DNA of 64,000 bases from Nymphaea colorata (Eukaryota; Streptophyta; Magnoliopsida; Nymphaeales; Nymphaeaceae). Below are positions 33,653 to 64,000 of the stretch, one piece after another (position 1 is the stretch's first letter; every line of letters begins with the position of its first letter). A model generated the notes under the pieces. That model was not told the DNA's origin, did no database searches, and saw only the letters and a list, made by a program, of their open reading frames with translations. The stretch is from the NCBI RefSeq assembly GCF_008831285.2, contig NC_045141.1, forward strand, positions 23,710,742-23,774,741, written 5' to 3'. Position numbers and translations under genes: made by a program.

Positions 33653-36314
33653 ATGAGTCTCTTCAGGAAGACGGAGTTCTGCTTGGACTCATCTTTTGAT
33701 CTCCTTTACGACCAACTTTTTCCTCTCGCTCCGCGGATGCCCTGCCACCCGCTGCTCCTCCCACCGCCGCCACCATTGGAGAAGCCGCTCGTGCAGCCCC
33801 TGCCGTTGTCCGTCCTCGATTTCTTCCACCCAAGCTCCATCGACCTCCCATTCGATGCGCTCGAGAAGAGCTACGCTTCCGACTTGGTCGAGCTTAATGC
33901 CACCCCCTTCTCCTCCACACTCAGGAGATACAGGAAGGAATATCACTTCCCCGCTCCCGCCGTCTCCGATCTGATCGAGGTTAGCAGAACTCCCTTTTCC
34001 TCTTCCGTCAGGAGGTACAGGAAGGAATGCCACTCCCCTGCTCCGGCGTCCCTGTTCTCCGCGTCGTCGACCTTCTCTTCCTTTGCCTCCGACCTCCGCC
34101 TGCCCGCCGAGGTCGAGAAGGACGCGATGCTACAGTGCCTGAGCGATCGCATCTCTGCGCTCGAGCTGGGGCTCGAGGAGATTTTCTCCTCCCACCCCAG
34201 GCTCGTCTGCAAGGAGAAAGCAGGGCGAGACGTTTCTTACAGCTACAAGCTCGAGTCGGAAGGGGGGAAGGGACTCGATCGGAAGCAGAAATGGACCGCC
34301 GAGATTAAGGGGCTCCACGGTGAGGACTCGCGGATCTCCGCCACGTACAAACTTGAGGCCTCCGCTATGAAGAAGGAGAAAGACAAGAAGACGAAGCCCG
34401 CCGCCACCCGCGTGGTTCAGATCGAAGACGTAGACTCCGCCGTCGCCCGCAAGCAGGTGACCTTCTTCCTCCTCTCCTCCTTGCTTCCGTGGCTTGGTGC
34501 AAGATGGGGGCTGCACATCTTCTCAGGTGGACGCCTGGGAACATGAAACCCCCGTTGTGGATTTTCCGCGTTTCAGTCTTTTTCGCGAACGTTCTTTCCC
34601 ATTTGGATTTTGGCATTACCATGGTTTGCTGAAAATCTTAGGGTTTATTGTTTGGATGGAAACTCTTTCCTTTGAAAATCTAGTTTGGCTGTATAAAAGA
34701 TTACCCAGCGTAGTCATCTCGCTGATCGCATTAACGAATAAACAAGCTATAGTTCAACCATCTTATAGTGACTATCTTATACCTTAGATTGTAAGTTGTA
34801 GCCCACTCCGAAAAGAAAAAAGAGGCATCTAAGAATGTCCCCAAGAAAAAATCTACTAAATAAACTTTCTTTCGTTTTTCATGAATTTTGATCTTCATGA
34901 GACAATGTAGTTGTTGGCTCTTTCTAGTCGAAAGTCATCGTGATGTTAGGGATGTTTTGCCTATTTTCTGTGCGGATTGGCGTGCCCACTCACGGCAAAA
35001 ACTGTGGGTCACATGGCTTGGTGGGTCCGGGTCCGCACCAGGTGATAGAGCTCGGTTCAGTTTAGTCAGGTCCTTTGCCCAGCTTGGTCGGTAGGCTTAG
35101 TGGTGGTACACGCTTGGCCGCCACCGGTTCCGTGAGTGGGAGTCGCGTGACAGAATCGCGGATCTCGAGGTCTGTCATTCTGCCAGTTTTGGGCGGGTGG
35201 GAAGGAACGAGGCTGTCCAATCCATTGAAAGGGTAGGCGAATTTGATGCTTCTCGAGGTTGTTTGGCTGGGAAATTCTTTCCTCATTTTATTTAACTGGA
35301 AAAATACTTGCATTCCCCACATGAGTTAAGTGCCGTATCCGGTACTTCTTTCTTGCTTTCGATGGTGATCGTGATGATGATGATCACGGTGGTCGTGTTG
35401 ACCATGGAAGTTTTTAAGATGGGTACAATCAAATGACTCCGTTATTGACATTTTAGAACACGATTTGTACAAGTTTTCTCTTAGAATGGTCTGCAGAGAA
35501 ATCCTTTTCCTACAATGGTTCCTCTGCCTCCAAACGCGAGCTAATGGAGTTGATCACGTGACTCAGGATGTCACCTGTGTTGTGTAGCGCTGTGTTGAAT
35601 AACTGGATAATCTTTAGTCTTTTGCTTTCATGTTTAATGTGACTAGGAGCTGTTTGCGAAGCGGAGATCAGCAGCCGTAGCAGCTATTAAGAGCAGAGTA
35701 AGGAAAGGCAAGTGGAGGCAGCTCTCTCCTGAGGATGCTGCCTTGATCATTCAGATGAGCTTCCGAGCGCATCTTGTTCGTCGCTCGCAGGCGCTTCGAG
35801 GACTTAGGGACCTTGCCATAGCCAAGGCTAAATTGAAGGAACTTAGATCCTTGTTCAACAATTTCTCTTACCGGCGCCGCCTGACTGTTGACGCCGAAGA
35901 ACGGCAGAGGTTCTCGGAAAAGATCATCGTCCTCCTGCTCACTGTTGAAGGCATTGCGGTAATACTCAACTTACAGTTTTAGTAACACTCTGGATTTTCT
36001 GATGGAACACCGTATTTCTTGCTTCTGGGAAATGCATTTTCTGAAAGCTGATTGAGCCTCCGTGTTTAATATTGTTTTGCCAGGGTGTTGACTTGATGAT
36101 TAGAGAGGCACAGAGGAGCATGATCAAAGAACTGGAAGCCATGCTTGAGGCCGTGGATCCACAACCTGCTGGTAAGCTGGCGTCATTCAAGAGAAGGACG
36201 TTCGATCTGCCTGAACCATGCAGCAACGGTGAACTGGTAGAGATGGCAAAGGGTGTGGCTGAGGTAGTGCAGATGCTTGACCAAGACTGTCACAAGGTGG
36301 ACATCCGTGGGTAG
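33653..36314 (+). CDS. BAG7: BAG family co-chaperone, BAG7-like, complete, 3 exons
   Basis: BAG proteins bind the Hsp70 ATPase domain and promote nucleotide exchange; Arabidopsis BAG7 acts at the ER in the heat and unfolded-protein response. Exons are 33653-34456, 35647-35958 and 36084-36314, with GT-AG introns of 1190 and 125 bp, all in phase 0, giving 448 aa, close to BAG7 length. The N-terminus is Pro/Ser-rich. KWTAEIKG and ATRVVQIEDVDSA match the BAG7 subgroup. An IQ calmodulin-binding motif, IIQMSFRAHLVRR, starts at about residue 302. The BAG domain follows (LRDLAIAKAKLKELRSLFNN to MLEAVDPQ). Basic AKRRSAAVAAIKSRVRKGK at 272-290 could be a nuclear signal. Residues 76-132 are a tandem duplication. 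Exons 2-3 lie in the duplicated block of this window; this is the only copy with exon 1. It is convergent with the FMO-1 relic. Confidence 0.92.
33878..34051 (+). repeat. 87-bp in-frame tandem duplication in BAG exon 1
   Basis: Two adjacent 29-codon units, 33878-33964 and 33965-34051, encode SDL[V/I]E....TPFSS..RRYRKE..[F/S]PAPA. The DNA copies differ at scattered sites, so the duplication is not recent. Confidence 0.85.
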
Positions 36315-37403
36315 ACACACAAAACTAGTAACGCACAAAGCATCTCTTCTGGTTTGTTGTCTATCAATTCCGTCGTGGTAGAAGTTTTCTGACATGATCG
36401 TCCGCGCTTTCCTTCTAGTTGTTTTAACTTTTCCTGCTGAAACAGGAAGTTTTTGGATGGACCCCTTCTTGTTGTGTTTATGCGAGATGTAAACTCTATT
36501 TATCATGTGATCCTATATTACTAGGCTACTTCTTGTCTCCGTCTCCATCGTTACTGTTTACGTTCTATGCTTTTGGTCTCTTAGTTAAATAGCAGATAAT
36601 TGTGCCGTTGCTTTCCGTCCGTGATCTGCATTATGCAGGTGAGAATTGGATACGAATAAGCTAATAATAAGTTTGCCAACTTCTACTTCCACTCTTGTTT
36701 GGTACGTGACTCAACTTCATTTGAGAACGGTGCCATTAGGCCTGCAGAAGCTGGACAGGCCTGGCCATGGCTCAACTGGTGTTCTGCTTGTAGCTCTTAC
36801 TAGTGAACTTGAAAGGTGCATATTCAAGTCAGTAGACTCAGCGGTGCAGAAGTTAGTACGCGGTGGAGAAATATACCCCGTCATGTATATACAGAAATTA
36901 GAGTATCTACTTCAAGTACCAAATATAGAGTATGAATCTTATGGCTCGTACCCTTCAACGTACTCGCCTCCTAAAATGGCCGGTTTGGACTCCGGTTTCC
37001 GCAAGTTATACTACTTTGGGGATGCGAGACATCGTAAAAATTTTTGTAGAATGAGTTGGTTTGGGCTTGGACGATTCAAACATTGCCATGAAAATGCCTG
37101 ACCTTGGGATATGCATTCAAACAATGCCATGAAAACGCCTGATCTTGGGATACGCACTAAGAACTCAATTTATCAACCGCTTCCCCAACTTAGTTAATCA
37201 CCAACTCTTTACTTCTCAAGGGAGCGTTTGAATAACCATGAAAAGGATTTAGTGAAATTTCATAAAAAAGGGCGTAGAACAGAGTCATCTACATAGCCCA
37301 TCAGTGCATCCCGAAATGCTGTAAAGGAAAAGCGTATGGGAAGAAAAGGTGACGACTTTTTTCCACATACATTTGCTCTTGAAAAAGCCCCGAATGTTAG
37401 AAG
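36315..37403. other. BAG 3' flank, shared by the duplication units
   Basis: Contains a 151-aa open frame (36646-37101), but the matching stretches of units 2 (46137-46560) and 3 (56187 on) do not keep the frame, so it is probably not a gene. CTACA at 37289-37293 is the empty target site of the TRIM-like element found in unit 3. Confidence 0.6.
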
Positions 37404-37709
37404 TGTTAGTTAATGTGAACGTGTGAGCAATATGTGGAAGTTGAGATCGTGTGAACATGTGGTGGTTTTTTTTAGTTTCTTTTTTTTAGCCATAAAAATA
37501 TGAATTAATGGTTATGTGTCCACAAAATGGAGCTGCTTTTTGGCAAGTGGCATTAGTGGGTAGTTTTTTCTTTTGTTCTATAAATACTAGTTTCATGCGT
37601 GTAATCCAAGGAGTGAAAAAGAATGAAAGTGTTGAGGTCTTTTCAAGTTTTATTTTAACGTGCCCTTTTGTAGTGTTGTTTGCTGTGGGAGTTAGAAAGA
37701 CTTCCTTCA
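37404..37709 (+). repeat. Copia 5' LTR
   Basis: 306 bp, TG...CA ends; same length as the 3' LTR. Confidence 0.93.
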
Positions 37710-37713
37710 ATCT

Positions 37714-37725
37714 TGGTATCAGAGC
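37714..37725 (+). other. Primer binding site
   Basis: TGGTATCAGAGC, complementary to the 3' end of plant initiator tRNA-Met, four bases after the 5' LTR. Confidence 0.9.
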
Positions 37726-37823
37726 GCCAGGTTGCGTGGCCATCTCAAGTATCGTGGAGCATTGCAGAAGCAAGGAACTCCAAATCGCGTGCTATTGGTA
37801 AGAGTTATTTTTTGAAAGCTGGT

Positions 37824-38426
37824 ATGGCTAATTCAAATACTCTCAATTTATCCCAATCCTTAGTGCCTATTTTTAATTGTGAGAACTATGAGTTTTGGAG
37901 TATCAAAATGAAGACTTACTTCATTTCACAAGATCTTTGGGAGTTAGTTGAGAATGGTTATGCAGAAACTGAAGTATCAAAGGCAGCAGGAAAGTCAATA
38001 GAGAAAATTGATGTTAAGAAATTTCGGAAGAAAGATGCAAAGGCACTCTCAGTATTGCAGCAGGCTGTATCAGAGACTGTCTTCCCAACTATTGCTGGTG
38101 CAAAGAAGTCAAGTGAAGCGTGGCTATTCCTCAAACAAAAATTTCATGGAGATAAGAAAATTACTATAGTTAAGCTCCAAATCTTAAGGAGAGAGTTTGA
38201 AACATTTTGCATGAAAACTGGTGAGTCCGTTCAAAATTATTTTTCTAGACTCTCTACTATTGTAAATCAAATGAAGAGTTTCGGTGAAGCCATAACCGAG
38301 CAAAAGGTGGTTGAAAATGTGTTAAGAAGTCTTCCTTTTAAATTTGATCATGTTGTCACTGCAATAGAAAAATCCAAAGATTTGTCTATTTATTCTATTG
38401 ATGTACTTGACACATACCAGACCTGA
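37824..38426 (+). CDS. Copia gag (nucleocapsid part removed)
   Basis: 200-aa open frame from ATG 37824. It shows the Copia gag features: FNCENYEFWSIKMKTYF near the start, LWELVENG, AWLFLKQKFHG, and ENVLRSLPFKFDHVVTAIE near the end. It codes the capsid-like part. The CCHC zinc knuckle that normally follows is absent because the internal deletion begins at about 38400. The last residues after SIDVL are read out of frame from pol DNA. Confidence 0.88.
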   Translation: MANSNTLNLSQSLVPIFNCENYEFWSIKMKTYFISQDLWELVENGYAETEVSKAAGKSIEKIDVKKFRKKDAKALSVLQQAVSETVFPTIAGAKKSSEAWLFLKQKFHGDKKITIVKLQILRREFETFCMKTGESVQNYFSRLSTIVNQMKSFGEAITEQKVVENVLRSLPFKFDHVVTAIEKSKDLSIYSIDVLDTYQT

Positions 38427-39057
38427 CATTGTGTTTTCAGTGAGTTTGATATCAAGGTTCATGCAAGATCCTTCAGTGCAACATCTTGGTGCAGCAAAAA
38501 GAATTCTTCGTTATATTCAATCTACACTCAACTATGGAATTTTTTATAAACCTGTGACTAACTTTGGTTTAATTGGATATACTGATAGTGATTGGGCAGG
38601 TTCTGTTGATGATCGGAAAAGTACAAGTGGTTTTGTATTTGGATTTGATTCAAGTGCTGTGTCGTGGTGCTCAAAGAAACAAAGTTCAACAGCCTTATCC
38701 TCTTCGGAAGCTGAGTATATTGCTGCTACTGCTGCTGCATGTCAAGCAATATGGATGAGACGTATTTTAGAAGATCTTCAATTGAAGCAAGAGAATCCAA
38801 CTCAGTTATACTGTGATAACAAATCTACTATTTCCATGGAAAAAAATCCATCATTTCACGGAAGGACTAAACATATAGAGTTACGTTATCACTTTATTAG
38901 AGACGTGATTGAGAAAGAAGAAATTGAGTTGAAGCAATGTTTCACAAAAGAGCAAGTTGCGGATGGTTTTACAAAAGCACTACCACCATCAAAGTTTTTC
39001 AATTTTCGAGAAGCGATTAGAGTACAAGATTTTCACATTAAGGGGGAGAAATGTTAG
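38398..39057 (+). pseudogene. Copia pol remnant: end of RT and complete RNase H
   Basis: Open over 219 codons but without its own normal start. It opens at YLTHTRPDIVFSVSLISRFM, at the end of RT, and covers the whole RNase H domain. Catalytic residues are present: Asp in TDSDWAG, Glu in SSSEAEY, Asp in YCDNKS, and the His/Asp region HIELRYHFIRD. The stop codon lies just inside the 3' LTR. Confidence 0.9.
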
Positions 39058-39357
39058 TTAATGTGAACGTGTGAGCAATATGTGGAAGTGGAGATCGTGT
39101 GAACATGTGGTGGTTTTTTTTAGTTTCTTTTCTTTAACCATAAAAATAGGAATTAGTGGTTATGTGTCCACAAAATGGGGCCACTTTTTGGCAAGTGGCA
39201 TTAGTGGGTAGTTTTTTCTTTTGTTCTATAAATACTAGTTTCATGCGTGTAATCGAAGGAGTGAAAAAGAATGAAAGTGTTGAGGTCTTTTCAAGTTTTA
39301 TTTTAACGTGCCCTTTTGTAGTGTTGTTTGTTGTGGGAGTTAGAAAGACTTCCTTCA
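39052..39357 (+). repeat. Copia 3' LTR
   Basis: 306 bp, followed by the target duplication AGAAG. Confidence 0.93.
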
Positions 39358-39585
39358 AGAAGATGCCTTGTTTGAAATTTTCAATACATATTTTCAGTAT
39401 ACCGAAGTCCACGGTTTTTCGCCTGTCGAACATGACTACATGCTTGATGCATGTCTCACACGGAGCCACAAACTTTATTTTCCCTTCTTATTTATACGAA
39501 ATAGGAATACAGCGTCCTTGTTCAGGACACTAAATAAGTCACTAAATGGTGAAGATACCAACACACAACAAACCACAGGAAGACA

Positions 39586-42500
39586 TCATCGTATTTTCAA
39601 CTTCTCAAGAGAAAGGAAGAGCTCCTGGGCTTGTAAAACCAGATCATGGTCGTCCCATTCATCACGATGAGTCTCTGGTCGAGTCTGCCAGTTCTGTAAA
39701 GCTGCCTCGAGCATCCCCTTCCTCCAGCTCTCCACCATTGGGCAGCCACATTTCATTGCGAGCCAATCATCATACTCGAACCGTCAAAGTTGCAGCAGTT
39801 TTTTTTAAGTTAAAGCCATTATTAATAAGCTGGAATGTCAACCAACACTAGATTGGCAGACGTTGCACACACTGACACAACGCACTCACAATACTCAAAT
39901 CTGAAAATTGAAACTTTCAAACTTGTGATTATTGGTCAATCTTATTAATGTGTCATTGCAATCACAAGCTCAGACATTATAACTTGTGTTCTCACGCATA
40001 TCTCTGAAATAACCTGACATTTAAGTGATGTTAATCGGGAGAACAATTGTACCTGATATTCTGACATATTATGAGTGTAACGTTTAGGGTAACCAGCATC
40101 TTGTATCTGGGAGTAAAAGGCTTCAACGTCCTCCATCATCTCCATTTCAGTTGGAAGCAAGATCTTTTCTGAGAGAATGCCTGCCACCCATTTGCATTGT
40201 AATTCAAACATCGGAAAAGGAAGAATCTGCAGTGAACAAAAGAGCATTATTAGCCCCTTAATCATAAGTAACACCATTGCTTTACTATGTGTGAGAGAAA
40301 ACCTTCCACGGTATGCCAATGAACGAAAGTGATGGAGCCAGTGACGGTGGGAAAACATGCTTATACAGAGGCCCAACCCTGTTGTCATCCACACTCACAA
40401 CACCATTTGTCTCCAGAAATGGGAAATAATATTTATAGCTGCAATAAGAAGCATAAAACAGATGACAATTGAGAAAAAAAAAAAAAACCAATGCAAGTCC
40501 AAGGCTGCAACGAGTTTTGCATTTGGATGGGACAACTAAACACCATCTACAGACTGAGTCAAATTGGACAGGACAGAAGATTAGTCAGTCAGCAGACGGA
40601 CTATATTAGAAAACTTAGACCAAGGGTGTAAATGGTAAAATATACTAAAGCAGTGAAGCTGGCCAGACAGTGAATTAGAATGGCAGGCTTCTCCAATGTT
40701 TCTACACCAATGCATAGACCGTAACTTTTGGAGGCATAGCTAGCTAGCATGTCTTTTCTAAAAATAGACCGTCAGATTCAAATTGAACAGTGTGAAGAGA
40801 AGAAATATGGATCGAGCATGCTGGTGTTTGTATGTGCATGTCGAATATGCATCCCACAGAAAAGATCTACTTCAAGAAAACTTACTTTTGAAGAACATTT
40901 TTAAGGCAAACCAGTTTAAGATAATACTGTACCCTGTGCAATGCATGATGACATCAGCTACAACTGAACTTCCGTCGTTGAATACCACTTCACCATCCTC
41001 ATGGGCACTTTTGATCTGAATATAGTTTCAGCTAACATTAGCTTTTTATATTTCACACGATGATGTGGTACTACTCTTACCAACAGCTTCTTCTTCGGTA
41101 ACATTTTGAGATATTAACAGTAGAGGAACTTCGTTACCGTGGAATGAAGCCACATGTTGTCGTAGCCTGGTTGCCGCTTTGTAGTTTGGATCAGTGCAGT
41201 CCTTGAGGAAATATGAACTTCCTTAGCCACTGGAGCAATGTCTCTGGAAATATCAGCACCACTGGCTGCATCACCTATTAAAACCACTACCTAAAAAAGG
41301 AGATTAAAAGAAAATGAGACAAACAATTATTTGGCATCTCGGATGCATGAAATACGCCGGGGTGTATTTTGATCTGGTGTGCCCACGTAATAGTATTATT
41401 CACATGGGCATGGCCAGGGCAGACGAACTTTTAAAAAAAATTGAGTGCTTCTGCATCAAGATTCTGAAAAACTCACTATGTCAACAGCTCAATAGCATGT
41501 AACAGGAACTACCATTATTTAATTTTATCATATTTCTAAAGAAAGAAAATGAACAGCCGTGAATCTAAATCAGTAGAAAGACACAGCAGATGTCCCAGAC
41601 CAAAATTTATATTGAACAATGACTGAAGCAGAGGGTATATTATCGAATCGCAAATGCAGAGGATTTTGTACTTCGATGATATTTTTGAGACAGAAATGGA
41701 TTAATGAGGTCATGATTTTAAAATACCAGTCTGGCATCCATGTCGAAATTTCAGAACTATTTAAAAGCATACTAAATTAATGATATGTTTTTAGGGTATA
41801 ACATAAACAGAAGAATTCTCTGTGAGAAAAACGATCAAGCTTCCATCACGGGCAAGTACCAAAACGTAGATCGCTATGTCAATTAGCTGCCGTGTTCCAA
41901 TCATTCACATACCTTATCCTCGAATGGTTCAGGAACACGATAGTTATGGCTGTGAATTTGCTTGCCTGGCCATCTATCAACACCTACAAGAAGCAATAGT
42001 ACAGAAGCGGTCATGGAAGAAAGTAATTGAAGAATAGAAAGAGAAGTAGTTGAAGAACAGAAACAGACTTAATTTCATCACCATAAAAAGTATGCATGGC
42101 AGGCTGGAGATATGCTAACACTTCATTTTCATTGTCGCCTCTTGCTGAGGCAAAGGCGGCAAAGCCTCCCTCAGACCCTCTCCAATCCGTGGTTTGTCTA
42201 GGTGAAGATTCCTGGAAGAATCCTTCACTTCGTAGTTCTACTCGTTTGAGGAGGTAGTACCACAAGTATAATGTAAGTTCAAAACTCGATTTGGTTGCAT
42301 GAAATGCATAGTTCGAATGAGCATTTCATCCAAGCATGCAAAACATGGGACTCTGAAGGTAAAATGAGGTCAGTAACAGGCAGCAGCACGAGCATATCGT
42401 TCATATTCTTAACACTCATGATCCTGCTTCAAATCAATCAAGAATGAATAGCTTTCCATTTCAGTTTGCGAACATGGTAGATTCCAACTCCCCTTCATGA

Positions 42501-43086
42501 CCATGCAAGGTATAAGGTAGCACCAAATTACCAGGGATCTCAGCAACACGGGGCTCCGTGTGATGGCCGCTGCAGACCACGACGGCGTCAAAGACCTCAA
42601 TCACGTCGACGGCCTCTTCGTCGCTTTTGACCTTCCGCGACCGAACCAGCCACCTCCCGTCCGCCGCCCTGGTTACATGGAGGACGTCGGTTTGGAATCG
42701 GATCAACTTCATGAGGTCAAAGTCCCTGGCGAAGCCCGAGAGGTAGGCGAGCACCTCCTCGTGGCTGGGGAACCGCCGCTCGTCGCGACCGCCACTGCCG
42801 TGAACGGGTAGTCGCAAAAGCCCATTGACTCCCTGGGGAGGTTGGTGCGGAGCGACTTGTAGAGGCTGCTTTGGACCACCGTCCGACTGGGGTCGCGGCC
42901 GAGGAGGTCACCGGAGTCGACCTCCGAAGTATAGACCCACGTCCCGCCAACAGTGTCACCCCGCTCGAAGACAACCACGAGGAGGCCCTCCCTCTTCAAC
43001 TCCCTCGCCGCCACCAGCCCCGCGGCCCCAGCTCCGATCACCGCCACCTCCTTCGCCTCCATAGCGTCGCTCGCGTTAGTCCCCAT
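39586..43086 (-). pseudogene. FMO-1: FMO GS-OX-like monooxygenase, inactivated
   Basis: Exons 5' to 3': 43086-42532, 41983-41913, 41290-41138, 41015-40933, 40438-40303, 40226-40053, 39780-39586. The family S- or N-oxygenates small nucleophiles using FAD and NADPH. The FAD motif [10 protein letters not shown], the NADPH motif IGDAASGADISRD and the FMO signature WPGKQIHSHNY are all present. Two lesions are visible. One base is missing at about 42786-42793 in exon 1, against FMO-2, which shifts the frame after the DYPFTAVA segment. The acceptor of the last intron reads GG instead of AG at 39782-39781; both FMO-2 and FMO-4 have CAG. All other junctions and exon frames are sound, so inactivation looks recent. 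An alternative is a sequencing error at the frameshift, but the acceptor change would remain. Confidence 0.88.
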
Positions 43087-44545
43087 CTCTCCCCCTATTT
43101 GTGGCTCCACATTCTTCAAGTCAGCAGTAAAAATTACAAACGTGAAAGGTGGATTTCAGGTCCGGGGACGTGGGAGGACAATTTGTTGGATCCGGTTTAG
43201 TATCCGATCATAGATATTTTTCTAGATAGATCAATCCATTATACATATCACTTCACTTCACAGGTTCCCTTTTCGGCTGAACAGGACCCAGTGGTCTATT
43301 CGTCCCCCTTGGCCCTCCCGATCTGATTTTGTGTGGATCTGGATATCTGCACGTAAGCATGTCACCATGATGGTACATTGTTAAGGGGACCTAATTGGAC
43401 TGAATCAAAATCGGGAGCCCATGATCCAAGTGGAACACAAAACTTGCTTGCACGTTTCCTCTTCAATTTGAAAATTTGAACTCCAACCACCTTAATCTTC
43501 CGTTCTCCACAATTTTCTCCCTCCCCATCTTCTTCTTCTTCTCTCTTTATTTTAATTGTTACAGCGGGCTATGTGGTGCCGTCTCAAGCCCATAGATTTC
43601 AACTGAATTGGTATTTTAGACACTGGCACACGAGAGAGGGACGAAATTTTTCCCGTTCAAGTTGCTTCTTGAATCTTGGCTGTATTATCATACATGGAAA
43701 GCGAGGCTTAAGGGAGTTTTGTGGGTGTTTGCAAGCATGTGTCCACAAAGAAAAGAACAAAGGAAAAGCCAGCGGCACAATTAAGAATCATCAGCCAATG
43801 GTGCATGCGCATAGCCAGTTGGTGTACAGCCCTTTTCTTTTCATAATAAGGTTGGGAGACCTACTCTTCCCGCAGGCTTGCATCGAGAAGAGAGTAGTTC
43901 GCAGTTCGCAAGTCCAAATGATTCCCTTTGTTGAGTTTTCAAAAAGAAAATAACTTTTCCTTTCAAAACAAGTGCTTCAAACAAGGTTTTTTTTTTTTTT
44001 GCATGTGATTCAGGACGACATGCATGAGAGAAGTTTGCATCAAGATGATTGTCCAACAAGAATGCTGAAACCCACAGACCTCATACGGGAAAGGGGGTTG
44101 GACTTGACATGCAGATCTCATATCCTTCCCATGTGCTGGGAGGCAAAGACCACCCATACAGTAGTGATTTACTGCCACTAGCTGAGGGCTTCCGTTGCTG
44201 GAACTCAGGCTTGGAAAGAAAGAGGAAGACAGAGAGACGGAGCCATATGAGCTGGGGGCAGTTGCTCACACCATTCCCTTAAAGTTTTTCTTTATTTCCA
44301 AATGAATATTTTTAAATATTTTCTATGTTATGTATATGAGTTCTCCTTTGACATGACAACTGCTCACACCAACCTCTCAAGGTTTCTTTATTTTTAAAAT
44401 ATTTGTTATGCTGTGTATACTAGTGTCCACATGAAGATCTGTAAAGAGTGCCCTCTCCAGATTTTGTGTCTCGCTCGGCCACTGGAGAGAAGTGGATACT
44501 AGTTAAGGGTTATGCCAAAGTGCACACGCATACACACTCATATTC

Positions 44546-44572
44546 AGAGAGAGAGAGAGAGAGAGAGAGAGG
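44546..44572. repeat. (GA)n tract
   Basis: GA dinucleotide tract; further GA-rich stretches follow to 44798. Confidence 0.9.
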
Positions 44573-44766
44573 AACATGCAGATGATTTGAGATAGAGAGA
44601 AAGAGAGCCTATGGCGAAAGCCGGCACGAGTGGCCTAAGAGAGAGAGAGGTCAGACGAGGATTGACAAGCAAAACCCTTGTCCAACTGCATTCAAGAAAG
44701 AGAGGTTGAGAGAGAGAGCAAAGGACAGCGAGTCATTGACAAACAGTACCACCCATCAGTGAAACC

Positions 44767-44768
<2 letters not shown>

Positions 44769-44798
<30 letters not shown>
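44769..44798. repeat. (GA)n tract at the unit 1/unit 2 junction
   Basis: GA tract of about 30 bp ending some 18 bp before the start of homology with BAG intron 1. A shorter GA tract stands at the same place before unit 3 (about 55777-55790). Confidence 0.88.
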
Positions 44799-44799
<1 letters not shown>

Positions 44800-45194
44800 G
44801 AGGGGAAGATACTTGGAGGGGCTGTTTGGCTGGGAAATTCTCTCTTGCATTGCCTACATGTGTTAAGTGACGTATCCGGTATTCTTTCATGCAATGCTTT
44901 GGATGATGATGGTGATGATGGTGGTGATGATCACGGTTGTTGTCGTGACCATGGAAGTTTTTGAGTGGGAAGATGGAAATGACTCCGTTATTTAAATTGT
45001 AAAACACGATTTGTACAACTTTTCTCTTAGAATGGTCAGACGAAGATCTTTTCCTACAATGGGCCTTTGCCTCCAAACGCGAGTTAATGGAGTTCATCAC
45101 ATGACCCAGATGCACCTGTCATCCTGTCTTATGCAGGACTGTGTTGAATAATTGAATAGACGTTGGTCTTTGCTTTGATGTTTAATGTGAGAAG

Positions 45195-50613: not shown

Positions 50614-50667
50614 CTTTCTGTCTCTCTCGCTCTCCGTGTGTGTGGTGGCTAGCTCCACATTCACCAA

Positions 50668-52487: not shown

Positions 52488-52634
52488 ATGGCTGCCAAGA
52501 CCACCATTGTGCTGATTCTCTTCTTTGTCTTTTGTTCTTCATTGGACCAAGCTACGGGCGCTTCAAACACTCAACGTTTGGCAGGTCCTTCCAAAACCAG
52601 GGATCTTAGTGTGGGTGATCATTTTCTCACATGA
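52488..52634 (+). CDS. Small secreted-type open frame (48 aa), unidentified
   Basis: The frame opens with MAAKTTIVLILFFVFCSS, a good signal peptide, followed by DQATGASNTQRLAGPSKTRD and VGDHFLT. About 40 bases after the stop another stretch reads NNTRGPLPAELGRLHNLLQL (52673-52735), a leucine-rich repeat. The frame may therefore be the signal-peptide exon of a decayed LRR protein rather than a true peptide gene. The second copy at 62996 has a 7-bp insertion and a 13-bp deletion that spoil the signal peptide. Confidence 0.35.
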   Translation: MAAKTTIVLILFFVFCSSLDQATGASNTQRLAGPSKTRDLSVGDHFLT

Positions 52635-52672
52635 AACGACCCCTTTTGGATGGAGACTATGATAAAATTCAA

Positions 52673-52738
52673 GAACAACACTAGAGGACCACTTCCAGCA
52701 GAATTAGGTCGTCTTCACAACCTGTTGCAATTACAGTA
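52673..52738 (+). pseudogene. Leucine-rich-repeat relic
   Basis: One repeat of the plant extracellular LRR type, NNTRGPLPAELGRLHNLLQL, ends at a stop. The matching place in unit 3 (about 63177-63231) lacks the GAATTAG segment and is out of frame. Confidence 0.5.
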
Positions 52739-52739
52739 A

Positions 52740-53276
52740 TATTACAGAGCAGCTTCCATCTTCAATATTTAAACTATTCTGCTTTAATGGAGTTGGAGTT
52801 GGCACCAAATTCCATCTCCCCCACCAATTTGCTTTTTACGTTGCACAAACTGAATACAAATTCTGTCTGTATTTATGTGAACGGCTCAGGCCATTTTGGT
52901 ATATTAGTTATTTCAAATAACTTTCTCTGTCAACAACCGTCAAAAACAGGGTTTCATTTGTGAGAAAGTAAAACTTGAGGGCCTCCATGTTGCCCTTCAA
53001 AAGTTGAGGGTCGATGTATCATAGGCTTGGAAACATGAGCGTCTATCTGTTATTTTTTCTTATCATTTCCTTTTGATGCAATGGGCTGTGAGTCGTGGCG
53101 GCTCACCATTTTTTTTTTCTCCTCTTTTCTTTTCTTTTCTTTTTTCGAAATGATGATCGTGAAGCCCAATTGCATCTTATAAAAATAACACCATGGAAAG
53201 CTCAATTCAAACTTCATGTGGAGTCATGAACTTAACATGACACCTTTTAAATGATCTTCTTGCCACCTGCTGACGC
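52740..53276. other. Flank Y continued, no gene
   Basis: Collinear with about 63240-63750. Contains a T-rich pyrimidine tract with TTTTC repeats near 53108-53145. Confidence 0.55.
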
Positions 53277-53468
53277 TTATCTAGGTGCCATGGATAAATC
53301 ACCATTGTTCCATATGCTAGCGGAGTTCCCGATGCCTATGACGTACCAGTTGTCCTTCGGCCTTGTGGTGGTACCAAGCGGCAGTATAATGCAACGCCCA
53401 GGGTTCAAAACTGGTATATGTAGAGTAAAAGAAAGGAACACGAGGAGTATGAGGCATATACCACTCAT
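53277..53468 (-). CDS. Small secreted-type open frame (63 aa), unidentified
   Basis: The ATG at 53468 is chosen because it begins the part conserved with the copy at 63751-63963. It starts MSGICLILLVFLSFTLHIPV (signal-peptide-like) and continues with ILPLGTTTRPKDNWYVIGIG, NSASIWNNGDLSM and a stop. Both copies are open and differ mainly by single residues. The DNWYV[I/V]GIGNSASIW core is not one I recognise. It may be a real small protein, the first exon of something larger, or a relic. Confidence 0.4.
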   Translation of the reverse strand: MSGICLILLVFLSFTLHIPVLNPGRCIILPLGTTTRPKDNWYVIGIGNSASIWNNGDLSMAPR

Positions 53469-53489
53469 CTTTGTTTCCACATGCTAACA

Positions 53490-54092
53490 GAGCTCATTGT
53501 TTCCCATATCTTACAAGCCCACAGTTTTGGTGCATCCGAAGCAGTGTTGTAAAATTTAGTTTCTGAACCAAACTATGAAGTTGCCAATTCGGTGAATCGG
53601 CCCTATTTTGATTCAGGTAAATCAGTCAAAAATTTAAAAAATCATTTCAAAAAATAAATGAAAATTGTAAAAAATAAACAAAATAAGAAATAAATATATT
53701 AAAATTCTAGTGAGAATTTGAATGTGGCGCTTTTGAATCAGCTGGTTCGGGCCGATTCTGGTAACGCATATCCAGACACCAGGAGTGGAGTTGAGAAGTA
53801 TGGGATAGCACAACATGAAGACCAACTGAACCAGCCGTGAATTTGTTCAGTCTTGGAACCTATTCACCACAACGTAAGGCACAAGACAAGTCACCTCTAT
53901 CCAGTAGTAACATCAAAGCCCTGCAGCCAGTTAACAGAAAAACTAATTTTATCGTCCCGAAATTTCAATGGTTCACCATGATTTCCTGAGAATGAGAAAC
54001 TTGCTTCATTCTTTATCAGAATTATTACAGAAATTTCAGCGAAACAATGTTCTCATAAGTGCTACATGGGAAAGAACACAAGAAAGATACCG
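53490..54092. other. Junction region between flank Y and the FMO-3 relic
   Basis: About 53540-53850 is rich in AATCGGCC and GGTTCGGGCCGATTC words, a common plant repeat. It lies between the end of flank Y and the FMO-3 exon and may have been involved in the rearrangement. No gene. Confidence 0.45.
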
Positions 54093-54284
54093 TCATATTT
54101 TCAACGTCTTAAGTGAAAGGAAGTGTTCCTGGGCTTGCAAAACCAAATCATGGTCATCCCATTCATCACGATAAGTTTCAGGCTGTGTCCGCCTCCTCTT
54201 GGAAGCCTCAGCATACATCTTCCTTCTCCAATTCTCCACCTTCGGATATCCACATTGTGTTGCAAGCCAATCATCATACTCAAA
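54093..54284 (-). pseudogene. FMO-3 relic: last exon only
   Basis: The exon reads FEYDDWLATQCGYPKVENWR, then PETYRDEWDDHDLVLQAQEH and FLSLKTLKI, then stop: 63 codons, open, with a TAG acceptor at 54287-54285. Exons 1-6 are absent; only about 300 bp separate it from flank X. Its protein differs from FMO-1, -2 and -4 more than those differ from each other (RRKMYAEASKRRRTQ against RKGM.EAA). Confidence 0.85.
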
Positions 54285-54589
54285 CTACAAGTAGAAAATG
54301 GCTTTTGACCCAAGTCAGTAGCATGAAAATCAATTCCACGGAACAAGAGATCCTGTCATAACGAACATAACTGACACACATTTTTCAACAACAAGTTTTC
54401 AGCTCAGCTGGGCACCATTGCCAAAGTAATCTTTGTCGGGCGGGGGCTTCGGTTTCTACTCCCCTGCATACTAAGTCCTTATTTGTTTCACACAGTTTTC
54501 TGTCAAGACTCAAAATAGATCATTCTACCAGAAAAATATCAAAAATTGGAGGGCAAATATAACGAGCAACATAAAACGAGGGGGACCCA

Positions 54590-55808
54590 GCCTCAATATT
54601 GAAAAGTTTTGACTCCAACAGCCTAAATCTTCTGTTCTCCATAATTTTCTGCCTCCCCGTCTTCTTCGTCTTCTCTCTTTGTTGTAAGCGTTACAGCGGG
54701 CTATGTCATGTTCATGTGCCGTCTGAAGCCCACGGATTTCAAATGAATTGGCATTTTAGGCACTGGCACACGAGAGAGGGACAAAATTTTTCCCGTTCAA
54801 GTTGCTTCTTGGCTGTATTATCATGAGAAAACAGGGAAAGCGAGGCTTAAGGGAGTTTTGTGGGCTTTTGCAAGCATGTATCCACAAATAAAAGAACAAA
54901 GGAAAAGCCAGTGGCACAATTAGGAATCATCAGCCAATGGGGCATGTGCTTACCCAGTTGGTGTACAGCCCTTTTGTTTTAATAATAAGGTTGGGAGACC
55001 TACTCTCCCCGCAGGCTTGCACCGAGAAGATACAACCCCAGGCTCAAGCCTCTTGCCTCGGAGTCAAACAGCGCAGTTCGCAAGTCCAAATGATTGCCTT
55101 TGTTGAGTTTTCAAAAAGAAAAATAACTTTTCCTTTCAAAACGTGTGATTCAAACAAGGTATTTTTTTGCATGTGATTCAGGACGACATGCATGAGAGAA
55201 GTTTGCATCAAGATGATTGTCCAACAAGAATGTTGAAATCGACAGACCTCATACGGGAAAGGGGGTTGGACTTGACATGCGGATCTCATATCCTTCCCAT
55301 GTGCAAGGAGGCAAAGACCACCCTCACAGTAGTGATTTACTGCCAGTAGCCGAGGGCTTCTGTAGCTGAAACTCAGGCTTGGAAAGAAAGAGGAAGACAG
55401 AGAGACGGAGCCATATGAGCTGGTTGGGTCTGTTGCTTACACCATTCCCTTAAAAGGTTTTCCTTATTTTCAAATGAATATTTTTAAATATTTTTTATGC
55501 TATGTACTCCTTTGACATGACAACTGCTCACACCAACCTTCCCAAGGTTTCTTTGTTTTCAAATTAATATTTTTAAATGTTTGTTATGTTGTGTATAAGA
55601 GTGTCTACATGTAAATCTGCAAAGAGTGCCCCCTCCAGATTTTGTTTCTGACTCGGCCAATGGAGAGAAGTGGATACTAGTTAAGGGTTATGTCAAGGTG
55701 CGCACGCATACATGCACATATTCACAGAGAGAGAGAGAGGGAGCAAAGGACAGCAAGTCATTGACAAACAGTACCACAGAGAGAGAGAGACGAGAGGAAG
55801 ATACTTGG
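54590..55808. other. Second copy of flank X
   Basis: Closely matches 43480-44815. The GA-rich stretch is about 150 bp shorter than in the first copy: material between two GA tracts (44573-44720 in unit 1) is missing here. Confidence 0.75.
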
Positions 55809-56376
55809 AGGGGTTGTTTGGCTGGGAAATTCTTTTCTCGTTTTATTTAGATGGAAAATACTTGCATTGCCCACATGAGTTAAGTGACGTATCCGGTACT
55901 TTCATGCAATGCTTTGGATGATGATCGTGGTGATGATGGTGGTGATGATCACGGTCATTGTCATGACCATGGAAGTTTCTGAGTACCAAGATGGAAATGA
56001 CTCAGCTATTTAGATTTTAAAACACGATTTGTACAATTTTTCTCTTAGATTGGTCTGACGAAGATCTTTTCCTACAATGGGCCTTTGCCTCCAAAGGCGA
56101 GTTAATGGAGTTTATCACATGACCCGGGATGCACCTGTCATCCTGTCTTATGTAGGACTCTGTTGAATAATTGGATAATCTTTAGTCTTATGGCCTAGAC
56201 CCTTCAACATACTAGCCTCCTAAAATGGCCGGTTTGGACTCCGGTTTCCGCAAGTTATACTACTTTCCCAAGTTAGTTAACCAATAACTTTTTACTTCTC
56301 AAGGGAGCGTTTGAATGACCATGGAAAGGATTTCGTGAAATTTCATAAAAAAGGGCATAGAACAGAATCATCTACA

Positions 56377-56674
56377 TGTTGAAAACATAAAAATGAGAAA
56401 TTTTAATGTGGAGTAATTTTATTTATCCACGGAAGCCTTAAGATTGATAAAGTATTTCAACGTCTTATATATAGGCATTACAGCGGAGGCAACTCATTTT
56501 AAGGAGTTGATACAAAATATTCATTATCAACACAATGGTTCCTTGAGTTGTGCTTGTTATTAACTGTTTCCAGAACCGTTGACATGATCTTTTGCCTCAT
56601 ATTTGCTAACAATCCTTTCCATAATGATGGCATCCTCATCAAATGTGTTGCACTGTTAACCATCGTTCTTTTCA
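56377..56674 (-). repeat. TRIM 3' LTR (minus orientation)
   Basis: 298 bp. Paired with 56959-57251 through shared words such as TTTATTTATCCACG, ACAAAATATTCATTATCA and AATCCTTTCCATAATG-like sequence. Confidence 0.78.
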
Positions 56675-56774
56675 TCTTCCCTTGGAGGGTGCACAAGTCC
56701 AAATTTGTCATGGAGATTTTGTAAAGGTAGATCATGTTTTGGGAGTGATTCAAAAATCCTAAGTTTGATTCCTG

Positions 56775-56950
56775 AAGATTTTGTTAATAGGACTGAGTCC
56801 TTGCTTTGGCAAAGAATGCAGTGAACTCTTTCATCGTCTGCAAGCCATCTTTGGGCTTCGATCTTCTTCTCCTGCTCATTAATGAAGAAGGCAGTGATCT
56901 CTTTGATCGTCTATAGGTCATCTTTGGACTTCAATTTTGTTCTCCTGCTT
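56775..56950. repeat. Tandem duplication inside the TRIM interior
   Basis: Two diverged copies of GAA.GCAGTGA.CTCTTT.ATCGTCT followed by CATCTTTGG.CTTC and TTCTCCTGCT, about 75 bp apart. Confidence 0.75.
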
Positions 56951-56958
56951 TGATATCA

Positions 56959-57251
56959 TGAAGAAAAACAAAAAAGATAGGAAATTTTAAAGTGCATTAT
57001 TTTTATTTATCCACGAAAGATCATTGGCTTTGAAATTGATAAAGTATGTCAATCTTTTAGCTGAGATAACTCCAATTTTAAAGAGCTGTTACAAAATATT
57101 CATTATCACAAAACCGTTTTCCAATATTCTGCTCGTTAACTATTTCCATAATTCATCATCTTGATTTTTGCCACCATATTTGCAAACGATCCTTTCCATA
57201 ATGTTGGCATCTTTATCATATGTGTTGTGCCCTTAACCATCATTTTTTTCA
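56959..57251 (-). repeat. TRIM 5' LTR (minus orientation)
   Basis: 293 bp, next to the degenerate primer site at 56947-56958. Confidence 0.78.
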
Positions 57252-57609
57252 CTACATAGCCCCTCAGTGCATCCCGATGATGCTGTCGAAGAAAAAGTGA
57301 CGACTTTTTTCCACAGAAATTTGTTCTTGAAAATGTCGAGAATGTTAGAAAATTACTTGTTTGAAATTTTCAGTACATATTTTCAGTTTACCGAACTCCA
57401 AGGTTTTTCGCCTGTCTGTCCAACATGACTACATGCTTGATGCATGTCACACACGGAGCCACAAACTTAATTTCCCTCCTTGTTTATACGAAATAAGATT
57501 ATAAGAATACTGCTTCCTTGTTTAGGACACTAAATAAGTCCACCGAAACAATGACCCAGAAGGGAGCAAATGGTGAAGATACAAATACACAACAAACCAC
57601 AGCAAGACA
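57252..57609. other. FMO-4 3' flank
   Basis: Duplicate of the stretches before FMO-1 and FMO-2. It includes the uninterrupted Copia target (AGAAA, about 57347). Confidence 0.65.
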
Positions 57610-60600
57610 TCATCTTATTTTCAACTTTTCAAGAGAAAGGAAGCTCTCCTGGGCTTGTAAAACCAAGTCATGGTCGTCCCATTCATCACGATAAGTCTCT
57701 GGTCGAGCCCCCCTGTTCACTGAAGCTGCCTCGTACATTCCCTTCCTCCAGCTCTCCACCATTGGGCAGCCGCATTGCGTTGCAAGCCAATCATCATACT
57801 CGAACTGTCAAAGTTGCAGCAGTTTTTTCCCAAGTTAAGACCATTATATAATAAGCTGAATGTCAACAAACACCAGATTGGCAGACGGTGCATACATTGA
57901 TTCCACACTCACAATAGTCAAATCTGAAAATAGAAACTTTCAAGCTTGTGATTATTGGTCAATCACACGAATATGTGATTGCAATCACAAGCTGAGAAAC
58001 TATCACCTTTGCTCTCACGCCTACCTCTGAAATAACCTAACCTTAAGTGATGTTAACAGGACGAGAACAACTGTACCTGATATTCTGACATATTATGAGT
58101 ATAACGCTGAGGGTAACCAACATCTTCTATCTGGGAGTAAAAAGCTTCTACATCCTCCATCATCTCTTTTTCAGTTGGAAGCGAAACCTTTTCTGAGAGA
58201 ATGCCTGCCACCCATTTGCTTTGTAATTCAAACATCGGAAAAGGTAGCATCTGCAGTAAAACCAAAGAAGCATTAGCCCCTTAATCATAACTAAAACCAT
58301 TGCTTTACTGTGTCTGAGAGAAAACCTTCCATGGTATGCCAATGAACGAAAGCGACGGAGCCAATGGCGGTGGGAAAACATGCTTATACACTGGGCCAAG
58401 CCGGTTATCATCCACAGTCACAACACCATTTGTCTCCAGAAATGGGAAATGATATTGGTAGCTGCAATAAGATTCATATAACAGACGACAATTAAAAAGA
58501 GCACCAATGCAAGTTCAAGGCTGTAATGAGTTTTGCTTTGGTGGGGCAACTAAACGCCATCTACAGAATGAGTCAAAGTGGACAGGACAGAAAATCCATC
58601 AGCGGACAGACTACTAGAAAACTTAGACCAAGCCACCAAGGGCGTAAGCAGTAAAATATACAGGAACAGCTCCACTGTTTCCACACCAATGCATAGGCCA
58701 TAAGTTTTGGAGGCAAAGCCAGCATATCTTTCTCTATAAGTAGACAGGAAGATTCAAGTTGAACCGTGTGAAGAGAAAAAATATGGTTCAAGCATGCTGG
58801 TGTTCGTATGTGCATGTCGAATATGTATCCCACAGAAAAGAGCTACCTCAAGAAAACCTACTTTTAAAAGCATAGGCAAACCAAGTTTACATAATACTGT
58901 ACCCTGTGCAATGTAGAATGACATCAGCTACAACTGAACTTCCATCGGTGAATACCACTTTTCCATCCTCATGGGCACTTTTGATCTGCATAGTTTCAGC
59001 TAATATTAGCTTTAGTGTTTCACTCGATGACGTGGTACTACTTTTACTAACAGCTTCTTCTGCAGTAACCTTTTGAGATGTTAACAGTAGGGGAACCTTA
59101 CCGTGGGATGAAGCCACATGTTGTCGAAGCCTGGTTGAATTTTTGTCGTTTCGATCAATGCAGACCTTGAGGATATATGAACTTCCTTCGCCATTGGAGC
59201 AATGTCTCTAGAAATATCAGAACCACTGGCTGCATCACCTATTAAGACCACTACCTAAAAAGGAGATTAAAGGTAAATGTGATGCACAATTATTTGGCAT
59301 CTCGGATGCATGAAATAGGCCATTCCAGATTTGAACGATCAAAATAGCTGCCTATGGTGACAAGGTCGTATTTGGATTTCGTATGCCCACTTAATAATAT
59401 CATTCGCATGGGTGGGGCCAGTGCAGACCAACTTTTATAAAAGCTTGATTGTTTTACGCGTCAAGATTTTGAAAACAACAAAATGCAAACAGCTCTTTAG
59501 CATGTAACAGGAACTAAACCTTTATTTAATTTGGACACATTCCTAAAGAAAGAAAATCAACAGCCGTGAATGTAAATCAGTAAGAAAGACGCTGTAAATG
59601 TCCCAGACCAAAATTTATATCGAACTATGCCCGAAACAGATGGTAGATTATCGAATTTCAAATGCAGAGGATTCTGTATTTTGATGACATGTTTGAGACA
59701 GAAATGGATTAATGAGGCCATGATTTTAAAATAGCACTCTGGCATCCCTGATGAAATTTCAGAACTACTTAAAGACAATCAAATAATGAACTGCTTTTAG
59801 AATATAATGACATGTACAGAAGAATTCTGTGTGGAAAACTATACTTCCATCATGGGCAGGCAGCCCCAGATGTAGAGCGCTATGACAATTAACAGGCGTA
59901 TTTCAACCATTCGCATACCTTATCCTCAAATGGTTTAGGAACACGATAGTTGTGGCTGTGAATTTGCTTGCCTGGCCATTTATCAACACCTACAAGAAGC
60001 AACAGTAGGGAAGCAGTCATAAAAGAAAGTAATTGAAGAACAGAAAGACATTTAATTTTTATAACAATAAAAATTATTCATGGCAGGATGGAGATAGGGT
60101 AACACTTCATTTTCATTGTCGCCTCTTGCTGAGACAAAGCCTTCCCCTCTCTAATCGATCCGTGCCTTGTCAGTCTAGGTGAAGGTTCCTGGAAGAATCC
60201 TTCACTTCGTTGTTGTACTCATTTGAGGAGGTACCACAAGTATAATGTAAGTTGAAAACACGATTTGGTAGCATGAAATGCAAAGACCGAATCAGCATTG
60301 CATACAAACATGCAAAATATGAGACTCGAAATTAAAATGAAGGCAGCAACAGTCAGCAGCTCAAGCATATAGTTCATATTCCTAACACTCATAATCCTGC
60401 TTCAAATGAATCAGGAATTAATTACATTCGGTTTCAGTCTGTGAACATGGTAGAATTCAACTCCCCTTCATGTCCATGCAACGTATAAGATAGCACCAAA
60501 TTACCAGGGATCTCAGCGATACGAGGCTCTGTGTGATGGCCGCTGCAGACCACGACAGCATCAAAGACCTCACTCACGTCGACGGCCTCTTGCCGCTGAG

Positions 60601-61059
60601 GACCTTCCGCGACCGAACCAGCCACCTCCCGTCCGCCGCCCTGGTTACATGGAAGACGTCGGTTTGGAATCGGATCAACTTCAAGAGGTCGAAGTCCAAG
60701 GCGAAGTCGGAGAGGTAGGCGAGCACCTCCTCGTGGCTGGGGAACCGCCGGTCGTCGAGGCCGGCCACCGCCGTGAACGGGTAGTCGAAAAACCCCATTG
60801 ACTCCCTGGGGACGTTGGTGCGGAGAGACTTGTAGAGGCTGCTTTGGACCACTATCCGACTGGGGTCGCGGGCGAGGAGGTCACCGGAGTCGACCTTCGA
60901 AGTATAGACTCACGTGCCGCCGACGGTGTCACCCCGCTCGAAGACAACCACGCGGTGGCCCTCCTTCTTCAACTCCCTCGCGGCCACCAGCCCCGCCGCC
61001 CCCGCTCCGATCACCGCCACCTCCTTCGCCTTCATAGCGTCCCTCGCTGTACTCCCCAT
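57610..61059 (-). pseudogene. FMO-4: FMO GS-OX-like monooxygenase, inactivated
   Basis: Exons 5' to 3': 61059-60505, 59989-59919, 59254-59102, 58985-58903, 58461-58326, 58250-58077, 57804-57610. All splice sites are GT-AG and lengths match FMO-2 exon by exon apart from exon 1 and the longer last exon. Two lesions lie in exon 1. Codon 50, the Trp of GDTVGGTWVY, is TGA at 60912-60910. One base is missing at about 60588-60591 (KVLSGEEAV becomes KVLSGKRPST). Downstream exons are open, with substitutions such as VPKPFEDK for VPEPFEDK. It resembles FMO-2 more than FMO-1 in both exons and flank. A start codon internal to exon 1 would skip the FAD-binding motif, so no useful product is expected. Confidence 0.9.
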
Positions 61060-62995
<1,936 letters not shown>

Positions 62996-63136
62996 ATGGC
63001 TGCCGTTTGCCAAGACCACCATTGTGCTGATTCTCTTCTTTATCTTTTGTTCTTCACGGGCGCTTCAAACACTCGACGTTTGGCAGGTCCTTCCAAAACC
63101 AGGGATCTTAGTGTGGGTGATCATTTTCTCACATGA
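62996..63136 (+). pseudogene. Second copy of the 48-aa secreted-type frame, signal peptide lost
   Basis: A 7-bp insertion (GTTTGCC) after the third codon and a 13-bp deletion further on leave the last 25 codons in the original frame (GASNTRRLAGPSKTRD to VGDHFLT). The hydrophobic stretch is replaced by VCQDHHCADSLLYLLFF. Confidence 0.45.
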
Positions 63137-63139
63137 AAC

Positions 63140-63750
63140 AACCCCTTTTTGATGGAGAATATGATAAAATTCAAGAACAACACTAGAGGACCACTTCCAG
63201 CAGGTCGTCTTCACAACCTGTTGCAATTACAGTAATATTACAGATCAGCTTCCATCTTCAATATTTAAACTATTCTGCTTTAATGAAGTTGGGGTTAGCA
63301 TCAAATTCCATCTCCCCAACCAATTTGCTCTTTACGTTGCACAAACTGAATACCAATTCTGTCTGTATTTAAGTTAACGGCCCAGGCATTTTGTTATATT
63401 AGTTATTTCAAATAACTTTCTGTCAAGTGTCAACAACCGTCAAAAACAGGGGTTCAGTTGTGAGCATCATTTAAGTAAAACTTGAGGGCCTCCATGTTGG
63501 CCTTCGAAAGTTGAGGGTCGATGTGTTATAGGCTTGGAAACATGTGCGTCTATCTGTTATTTTTTCTTATCATTTCCTTCTGATGTAATGGGCTGTGAGT
63601 CGTGGCGGCTCACCATGTTTTTTTTTTTTTTCTTCTCTTTTCTTTTTTCAAAATGATGATCGTGAAGCCCAATCGCATCTTATAAAAATAATACCATGGA
63701 AGTAGAAGGTTCAAACTTAATGTGTAGTCATGAACTTAACATGACATCTT
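63140..63750. other. Flank Y continued, no gene
   Basis: Collinear with 52640-53276. Contains a T run with TTCTC repeats near 63618-63650. Confidence 0.5.
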
Positions 63751-63963
63751 TTAAATTATCTTCTTGCCATCTGCCCAAGGAGCCATGGACCACTCACCAT
63801 TGTCCCATATGCTAGCGGAGTTCCCGATGCCCACGACGTACCAGTTGTCCTTCGGCCTTGCGATGGTACCAAGTGGCAGTATGATGGAACGTGCAGGGTT
63901 CAGAACTGGTCTATGAAGCGTAAGAGAGAGGACTACGAAGCCTATGAGGCATAAACCACTCAT
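63751..63963 (-). CDS. Small secreted-type open frame (70 aa), unidentified
   Basis: Second copy of the frame at 53277-53468. It begins MSGLCLIGFVVLSLTLHRPV (signal-peptide-like), continues with ILPLGTIARPKDNWYVVGIG and NSASIWDNGEWSMAPWADGK and ends KII. An in-frame ATG five codons upstream (63978) exists in this copy only. It is seven residues longer than the other copy, which stops after SMAPR. Function unknown. Confidence 0.4.
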   Translation of the reverse strand: MSGLCLIGFVVLSLTLHRPVLNPARSIILPLGTIARPKDNWYVVGIGNSASIWDNGEWSMAPWADGKKII

Positions 63964-64000
63964 CTTTGTTTCCCACATGCTAACAGAACAGAGCTCATGG

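Follow-up and report, generated by a model that had tools for sequence, protein, structure and literature searches.

Genes and repeats at the locus

The window analysed here, 64,000 bases of Nymphaea colorata contig NC_045141.1 with 41% G+C and no N, carries a BAG gene on the plus strand and, converging with it on the minus strand, a flavin-containing monooxygenase (FMO) gene, and parts of both recur in a series of direct repeats (Table 1). When the window was compared with itself by BLAST (E up to 1e-10, matches of at least 100 bp), direct repeats far above chance expectation were confined to positions 35,257–63,987, and none was detected in 1–35,256. Segments 46,828–51,257 and 57,282–61,700, for example, were 93.7% identical over 4,462 columns, and 36,645–37,402 and 46,134–46,896 were 86.2% identical. 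The locus therefore consists of colinear direct copies adjoining on one sequence, that is, a segmental duplication in tandem whose breakpoint falls in a BAG intron, as an initial annotation of the same sequence had proposed. Three units, denoted A, B and D, begin at one point in BAG intron 1 (35,257, ~44,813 and ~55,805), again as stated there. A further pairing, overlooked in that annotation, links 43,463–44,565 with 54,593–55,743; the latter segment, C, is a second copy of the segments X and Y that lie 5′ of the FMO gene in unit A. Taken as a whole, 43,463–53,491 recurs in the same order at 54,593–63,987, with 18 of 21 alignment windows at 0.83–0.97 identity and the remaining three, at 0.43–0.56, falling over a deletion and an insert in D. 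Apart from its deletion, D matches unit B almost to the end of the window.

The parent BAG gene is intact, as had been claimed, and its three-exon model encodes 448 amino acids (aa). In the translation a putative IQ motif (Pfam PF00612, residues 298–314, 17.3 bits against a cut-off of 20.3, E 0.004) precedes a putative BAG domain (PF02179, residues 333–397, 22.5 bits against a curated cut-off of 23.4, E 1.6e-4). This is the expected order, and both matches are slightly below the curated cut-offs. The protein had no match in the PDB at E 0.1. From its predicted domains it appears to be an IQ and BAG protein of the BAG5/6/7-like kind.

The sole intact FMO gene is that of unit B. Its translation matched the Pfam FMO-like family (PF00743) in two stretches (E 2.6e-61, 208.1 bits, cut-off 22), and its best match in the PDB was 6wpu, over residues 11–449 (E 6.3e-189). 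It contains GAGAAG, an instance of GxGxxG, and WPGKQIHSHNY, an instance of the FMO motif in which W replaces the usual F; both are motifs of FMOs. The gene is probably of the plant S-oxygenase type, and is presumably expressed.

Table 1. Positions of genes, repeat units, junctions and inserts in the 64,000-base window
Feature	Position	Strand	Evidence or remark
Intact parent BAG gene (448 aa)	exons 33,653–34,456, 35,647–35,958, 36,084–36,314	+	spliced model, canonical sites
Putative left breakpoint of first duplication, in BAG intron 1	35,245–35,258		A–B and A–D homology begins here
Unit A, with BAG intron 1 to exon 3, FMO copy A, X and Y	35,257–44,565
Ty1/copia-type LTR element, internally deleted, in unit A only	37,404–39,357	+	5-bp target repeat
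FMO copy A, disabled	39,607–43,086	−	part homologous to coding region of copy B
X and Y of unit A, located 5′ of the FMO gene, at the left end of the block that the proposed second duplication copied	43,463–44,565		A–C K2P 0.095; X quartet
Junction A/B: end of Y to BAG intron 1, GA-rich	44,566–44,812		aligned to junction C/D
Unit B, with BAG exon 2–3 fragment, the intact FMO, X and Z	44,813–53,491
BAG exon 2–3 fragment in unit B, without exon 1	45,195–45,843	+
FMO copy B, sole intact copy, 7 exons, 451 aa	47,166–50,613	−	canonical sites
Fourth FMO relic: exon 7 (54,111–54,284) and flank	53,991–54,324	−	tblastn
C: second copy of X and Y of unit A	54,593–55,743		54,593 is the seam of a second duplication or of a misjoin
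Junction C/D, most likely a copy of junction A/B	55,744–55,804
Unit D, BAG exons 2–3 deleted	55,805–64,000		cut by window end
875-bp insert in unit D	56,377–57,251		5-bp target repeat, TG..CA ends
FMO copy D, disabled	57,631–61,059	−	part homologous to coding region of copy B

Pairing of the copies

Segment X, upstream of the FMO gene, is present in four copies, and their tree was ((A,C),(B,D)) with 100% bootstrap support in 200 replicates. Informative sites numbered 33 for this topology and 0 for each of the two alternatives. Kimura two-parameter distances (K2P, with 95% confidence interval, CI) were 0.113 (0.080–0.148) for A–C and 0.105 (0.070–0.144) for B–D, as against 0.277 (0.209–0.370) for A–B. 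The initial annotation had treated the units as three equal BAG–FMO repeats, produced by repeated duplication at one intron breakpoint and amplifying the FMO gene. The start shared by all three accords with such a scheme; the X quartet, however, places C with A and not in a third equal unit, D has no BAG exons, and two of the three seven-exon FMO copies are disabled. We consider a history of equal units very improbable.

Other segments were compared between A, B and D. A–B and B–D distances were 0.247 (0.175–0.321) and 0.088 (0.061–0.119) in the FMO promoter, 0.192 and 0.084 in the BAG intron, and 0.181 and 0.049 in the noncoding part of the FMO block, the coding exons alone giving 0.094 and 0.041. 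Over all segments the A–B distance ranged from 0.105 to 0.277 and the B–D distance from 0.027 to 0.105, so that the comparison within each segment is the one that counts. B–D was the smallest of the three distances in every K2P segment in which A, B and D were compared. The exception is a short BAG 3′ piece at 37,180–37,294, where differences over 115 positions numbered 8 (A–B), 11 (A–D) and 10 (B–D) and shared sites were mixed (AB 6, AD 3, BD 4); gene conversion may have acted in these short BAG 3′ pieces. No A–B gene conversion was detected over the FMO block, where, in all nine alignment windows (the last with 4 sites), B and D had more sites in common than did either A and B or A and D.

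Junctions and seam

The starts of the three units coincide (A at ~35,245–35,258, B at ~44,813, D at ~55,800–55,812), and the point lies in BAG intron 1, between the end of exon 1 at 34,456 and the start of exon 2 at 35,647. To the left of it the native intron carries on in A, but B and D share a single GA-rich sequence that follows Y. The junction of Y with the BAG intron is thus found twice, at A/B and at C/D, and its core had a K2P of 0.080 (CI 0.022–0.105, 93 columns), comparable to the remainder of the second block. Because B and D run leftward into the same GA-rich sequence after Y, the junction was most likely formed once and later copied.

The homology between A and C begins abruptly at 43,463. 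As A–B divergence is similar on the two sides of this position (0.247 to the left, 0.277 to the right), the seam is to be placed at 54,593 and not in A. A model in which A formerly carried Z and a second FMO gene, lost through recombination between X repeats, was rejected on the same steady A–B divergence and on the A–C distances there (0.081–0.113), which are far younger than A–B.

A probable history of two duplications

The simplest history, and in our judgement the probable one, comprises two successive tandem duplications shifted in phase. A BAG gene and a convergent FMO gene of the S-oxygenase type would initially have stood at one plant locus. In the first event Y, to the right of the FMO gene, would have been joined to the point in BAG intron 1, producing units A and B, the new unit receiving BAG exons 2–3, but neither promoter nor exon 1, together with a complete FMO gene. 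In a later event, out of phase with the first, a block of ~11 kb (~43,463–54,592) consisting of X, Y, the junction, B, Z and the FMO relic would have been copied behind itself as C–D (54,593–64,000+), with the first junction carried along. A second event out of phase would have the right end of A match C, B match D and the first junction occur twice. Later decay would account for the copia insert of A and its two FMO lesions, for the loss of BAG exons 2–3, the insert and two FMO lesions in D, and for the frame damage in the BAG fragment of B. We infer the order and number of these events from repeats, boundaries, divergences, a tree and lesions that can be read directly in the window, and we likewise take the decay to have been neutral. 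Within the window each gene is left with one intact copy, and these stand apart, the BAG copy in parental unit A and the FMO copy in derived unit B.

Several observations weigh against this history. B–D divergence is uneven, at 0.027–0.049 within the FMO gene and close by but 0.08–0.105 around it, and A–B divergence is only 0.105 (0.068–0.151) at 36,937–37,294 and 46,436–46,793, which may represent a conserved stretch or a conversion tract. In the exon-7 tree, B and D were grouped with support of only 72% (site counts 9, 1 and 1). B and D lack Y apart from its first ~50 bp, which calls for an extra deletion or replacement in unit B before the second event. The 875-bp insert of D has two direct repeats of ~290 bp, no more than 5 bases from its ends and only 73% identical, which seem to be older than its insertion; if these are long terminal repeats (LTRs) they would predate the duplication, yet the corresponding sites in A and B are empty. 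Finally, no homology was found between C and A to the left of the seam, so simple homologous exchange does not explain the second event, and a misjoin would leave a similar picture. Histories involving unequal exchange or conversion may also apply.

One of these is a single duplication followed by unequal homologous exchange between A and B, which would yield the order 1, 2L/1R, 2 with a hybrid middle unit. Such an exchange would produce the observed topology, with A–C and B–D equally old, and is a close variant of the two-duplication history. It should, however, keep the middle unit in register; instead X, Z and the FMO relic precede the X of C, and the seam has no flanking homology. We regard unequal exchange as decidedly unlikely.

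The initial annotation had also raised the possibility of an assembly artefact from haplotypes. For A against B this is very unlikely, their overall K2P being 0.164. For the C–D block it would mean that only the A/B duplication is real, and that C–D represents the alternative haplotype (or a homeologue) of the right end of A plus B, joined in the assembly at ~54,593. Equal A–C and B–D divergence is predicted by a misjoin of this kind and is observed, and the joined sides of the seam share no homology. The passages of PMC9516828 concerned with false duplications give heterotype duplications as their main source in earlier vertebrate assemblies, which also favours it; the same passages name gaps between copies as one mark of false duplications, whereas the window is without N. 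D, moreover, has a deletion and an insert of its own, although alleles could differ in this way too. The distances (0.049 for noncoding parts of the FMO block, a synonymous divergence, Ks, of 0.060 for the FMO gene, and 0.08–0.11 for intergenic sequence) are high for alleles by the standards of plant diversity, unless the plant is a wide hybrid. A C–D misjoin is an unlikely alternative, if not a negligible one, and the A/B duplication would outlast it, hardly touched at its overall divergence.

Two duplications shifted in phase, if they occurred, would illustrate how an earlier junction is recopied, with the effect that several repeats seem to share one start, and how two adjacent genes can come to keep their intact copies in different units. 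The locus also shows how closely a haplotype misjoin can resemble a genuine second duplication.

State of the gene copies

The initial annotation assigned a whole convergent FMO gene to every extra copy. The seven-exon layout is indeed present in A, B and D, but the frame is open only in B, and amplification of the gene holds in a weak sense: one copy is intact, two are disabled by two lesions each, and one is a relic of exon 7. In copy A, exon 1 is frameshifted and exon 7 has lost its canonical splice acceptor, for which a nearby acceptor may substitute. Exon 1 of copy D contains both a nonsense codon and a frameshift; a defect in its exon-3 donor, hinted at by an alignment gap, was dropped, since the donor is GT.

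The relic was overlooked in the initial annotation, and no exons 1–6 matching it were found beside it. Over exon 7 and flank its K2P from A, B and D was 0.39–0.45, whereas A was 0.13–0.15 from B and D, and B–D was 0.027; by these distances the relic predates the split of the other copies. With codons containing gaps or stops excluded, the ratio of nonsynonymous to synonymous divergence (Ka/Ks) of the FMO gene was 0.31 for A–B (0.21–0.48) and 0.55 for B–D (0.34–1.07), with overlapping intervals. Changes assigned to B were 8 synonymous and 15 nonsynonymous, and those assigned to D 9 and 19. The ratios and counts are compatible with relaxed constraint after the second event, in B as well, but do not prove it.

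A tblastn search with the BAG protein (E up to 1) detected exons in A and B only. The claim that every extra copy carries BAG exons 2–3 is accordingly right for B and wrong for D, where tblastn found no BAG exon and homology breaks off at the position corresponding to 35,624, resuming only at the counterpart of 36,937. In the fragment of B, exon 2 has lost 2 bases, gained 3, and undergone in-frame losses of 21 and 3 bases, while the frame of exon 3 is open. Ka/Ks between B and A was 0.67 (0.31–1.89) for exon 2 and 0.26 (0.08–0.89) for exon 3, with intervals too wide to show or rule out constraint. It is conceivable, and in our view extremely improbable, that this promoterless fragment is alive, driven from the GA-rich Y/BAG junction and yielding a short BAG-tail transcript or one antisense toward the convergent intact FMO gene, a new regulatory pair that would explain why the intact FMO gene is that of unit B. 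The ratio for exon 3 could reflect constraint on A itself, and exon 2 of the fragment is damaged.

Inserts and remaining sequence

The copia-type insert of unit A was overlooked in the initial annotation. It has LTRs with TG..CA ends, a 5-bp target duplication and a copia gag match (PF14223, 9.1e-34). Its direct repeat spans 312 columns, a few flanking bases included, with 96.5% identity and a K2P of 0.036. A complete pol is lacking: the gag open reading frame (ORF) ends near an ORF that we take to be RNase H-like, itself without a Pfam match, and the middle is missing. As its site is empty in B and D and its LTRs are 96.5% identical, the element is probably younger than both duplications. Together with the spliced BAG and FMO genes, it points to plant nuclear DNA.

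Between X and Z in unit D, an (AT)27 microsatellite followed by (AG)15 occupies 62,103–62,187. In the left half of the window (1–33,600), the 10 ORFs searched among 60 listed gave no Pfam match at E 0.01; this part is possibly gene-poor, or has genes with short exons. No tRNAs were found in the window, nor any Rfam families at gathering scores. Automatic annotation could call extra BAG and FMO genes here, although only one of each looks intact within the window.

Comparison with known systems

The repeats represent ordinary gene birth and death of a known kind, in a more intricate form than first read. One narrow literature query joining BAG7, FMO GS-OX and tandem returned nothing, and we make no claim of a first report.

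FMO copy B, over the residues given above, resembles PDB entry 6wpu, which we take to be AsFMO, the garlic S-oxygenase, although the matched entry was named only flavin-containing monooxygenase. In the tabulation given in PMC10682829, AsFMO is entered without a structure. In the review PMC10086319, Arabidopsis BAG5, BAG6 and BAG7 are described as having an IQ motif that adjoins the BAG domain, and the parent BAG gene here encodes a putative IQ motif just before its putative BAG domain.

Plant FMO clusters, exemplified by those of rice and by wheat clade II as cited in PMC9960948, are there attributed to tandem duplication; the family includes an S-oxygenation clade, and suspected pseudogenes are described in rice. 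The present locus is like those clusters, so far as that account describes them, in family, in its tandem copies and in its disabled members, and differs in that the junctions and the order of events can be read and that a BAG fragment is included. Partial gene duplicates, in which a duplication breakpoint inside a gene leaves a truncated copy beside a complete parent, are described as frequent in several eukaryotes (Katju 2012, PMC3449122). The truncated BAG copy beside its complete parent is of this type; unlike the cases outlined in that source, it travels with a complete neighbouring gene, would have been copied again with it, and was then deleted in D.

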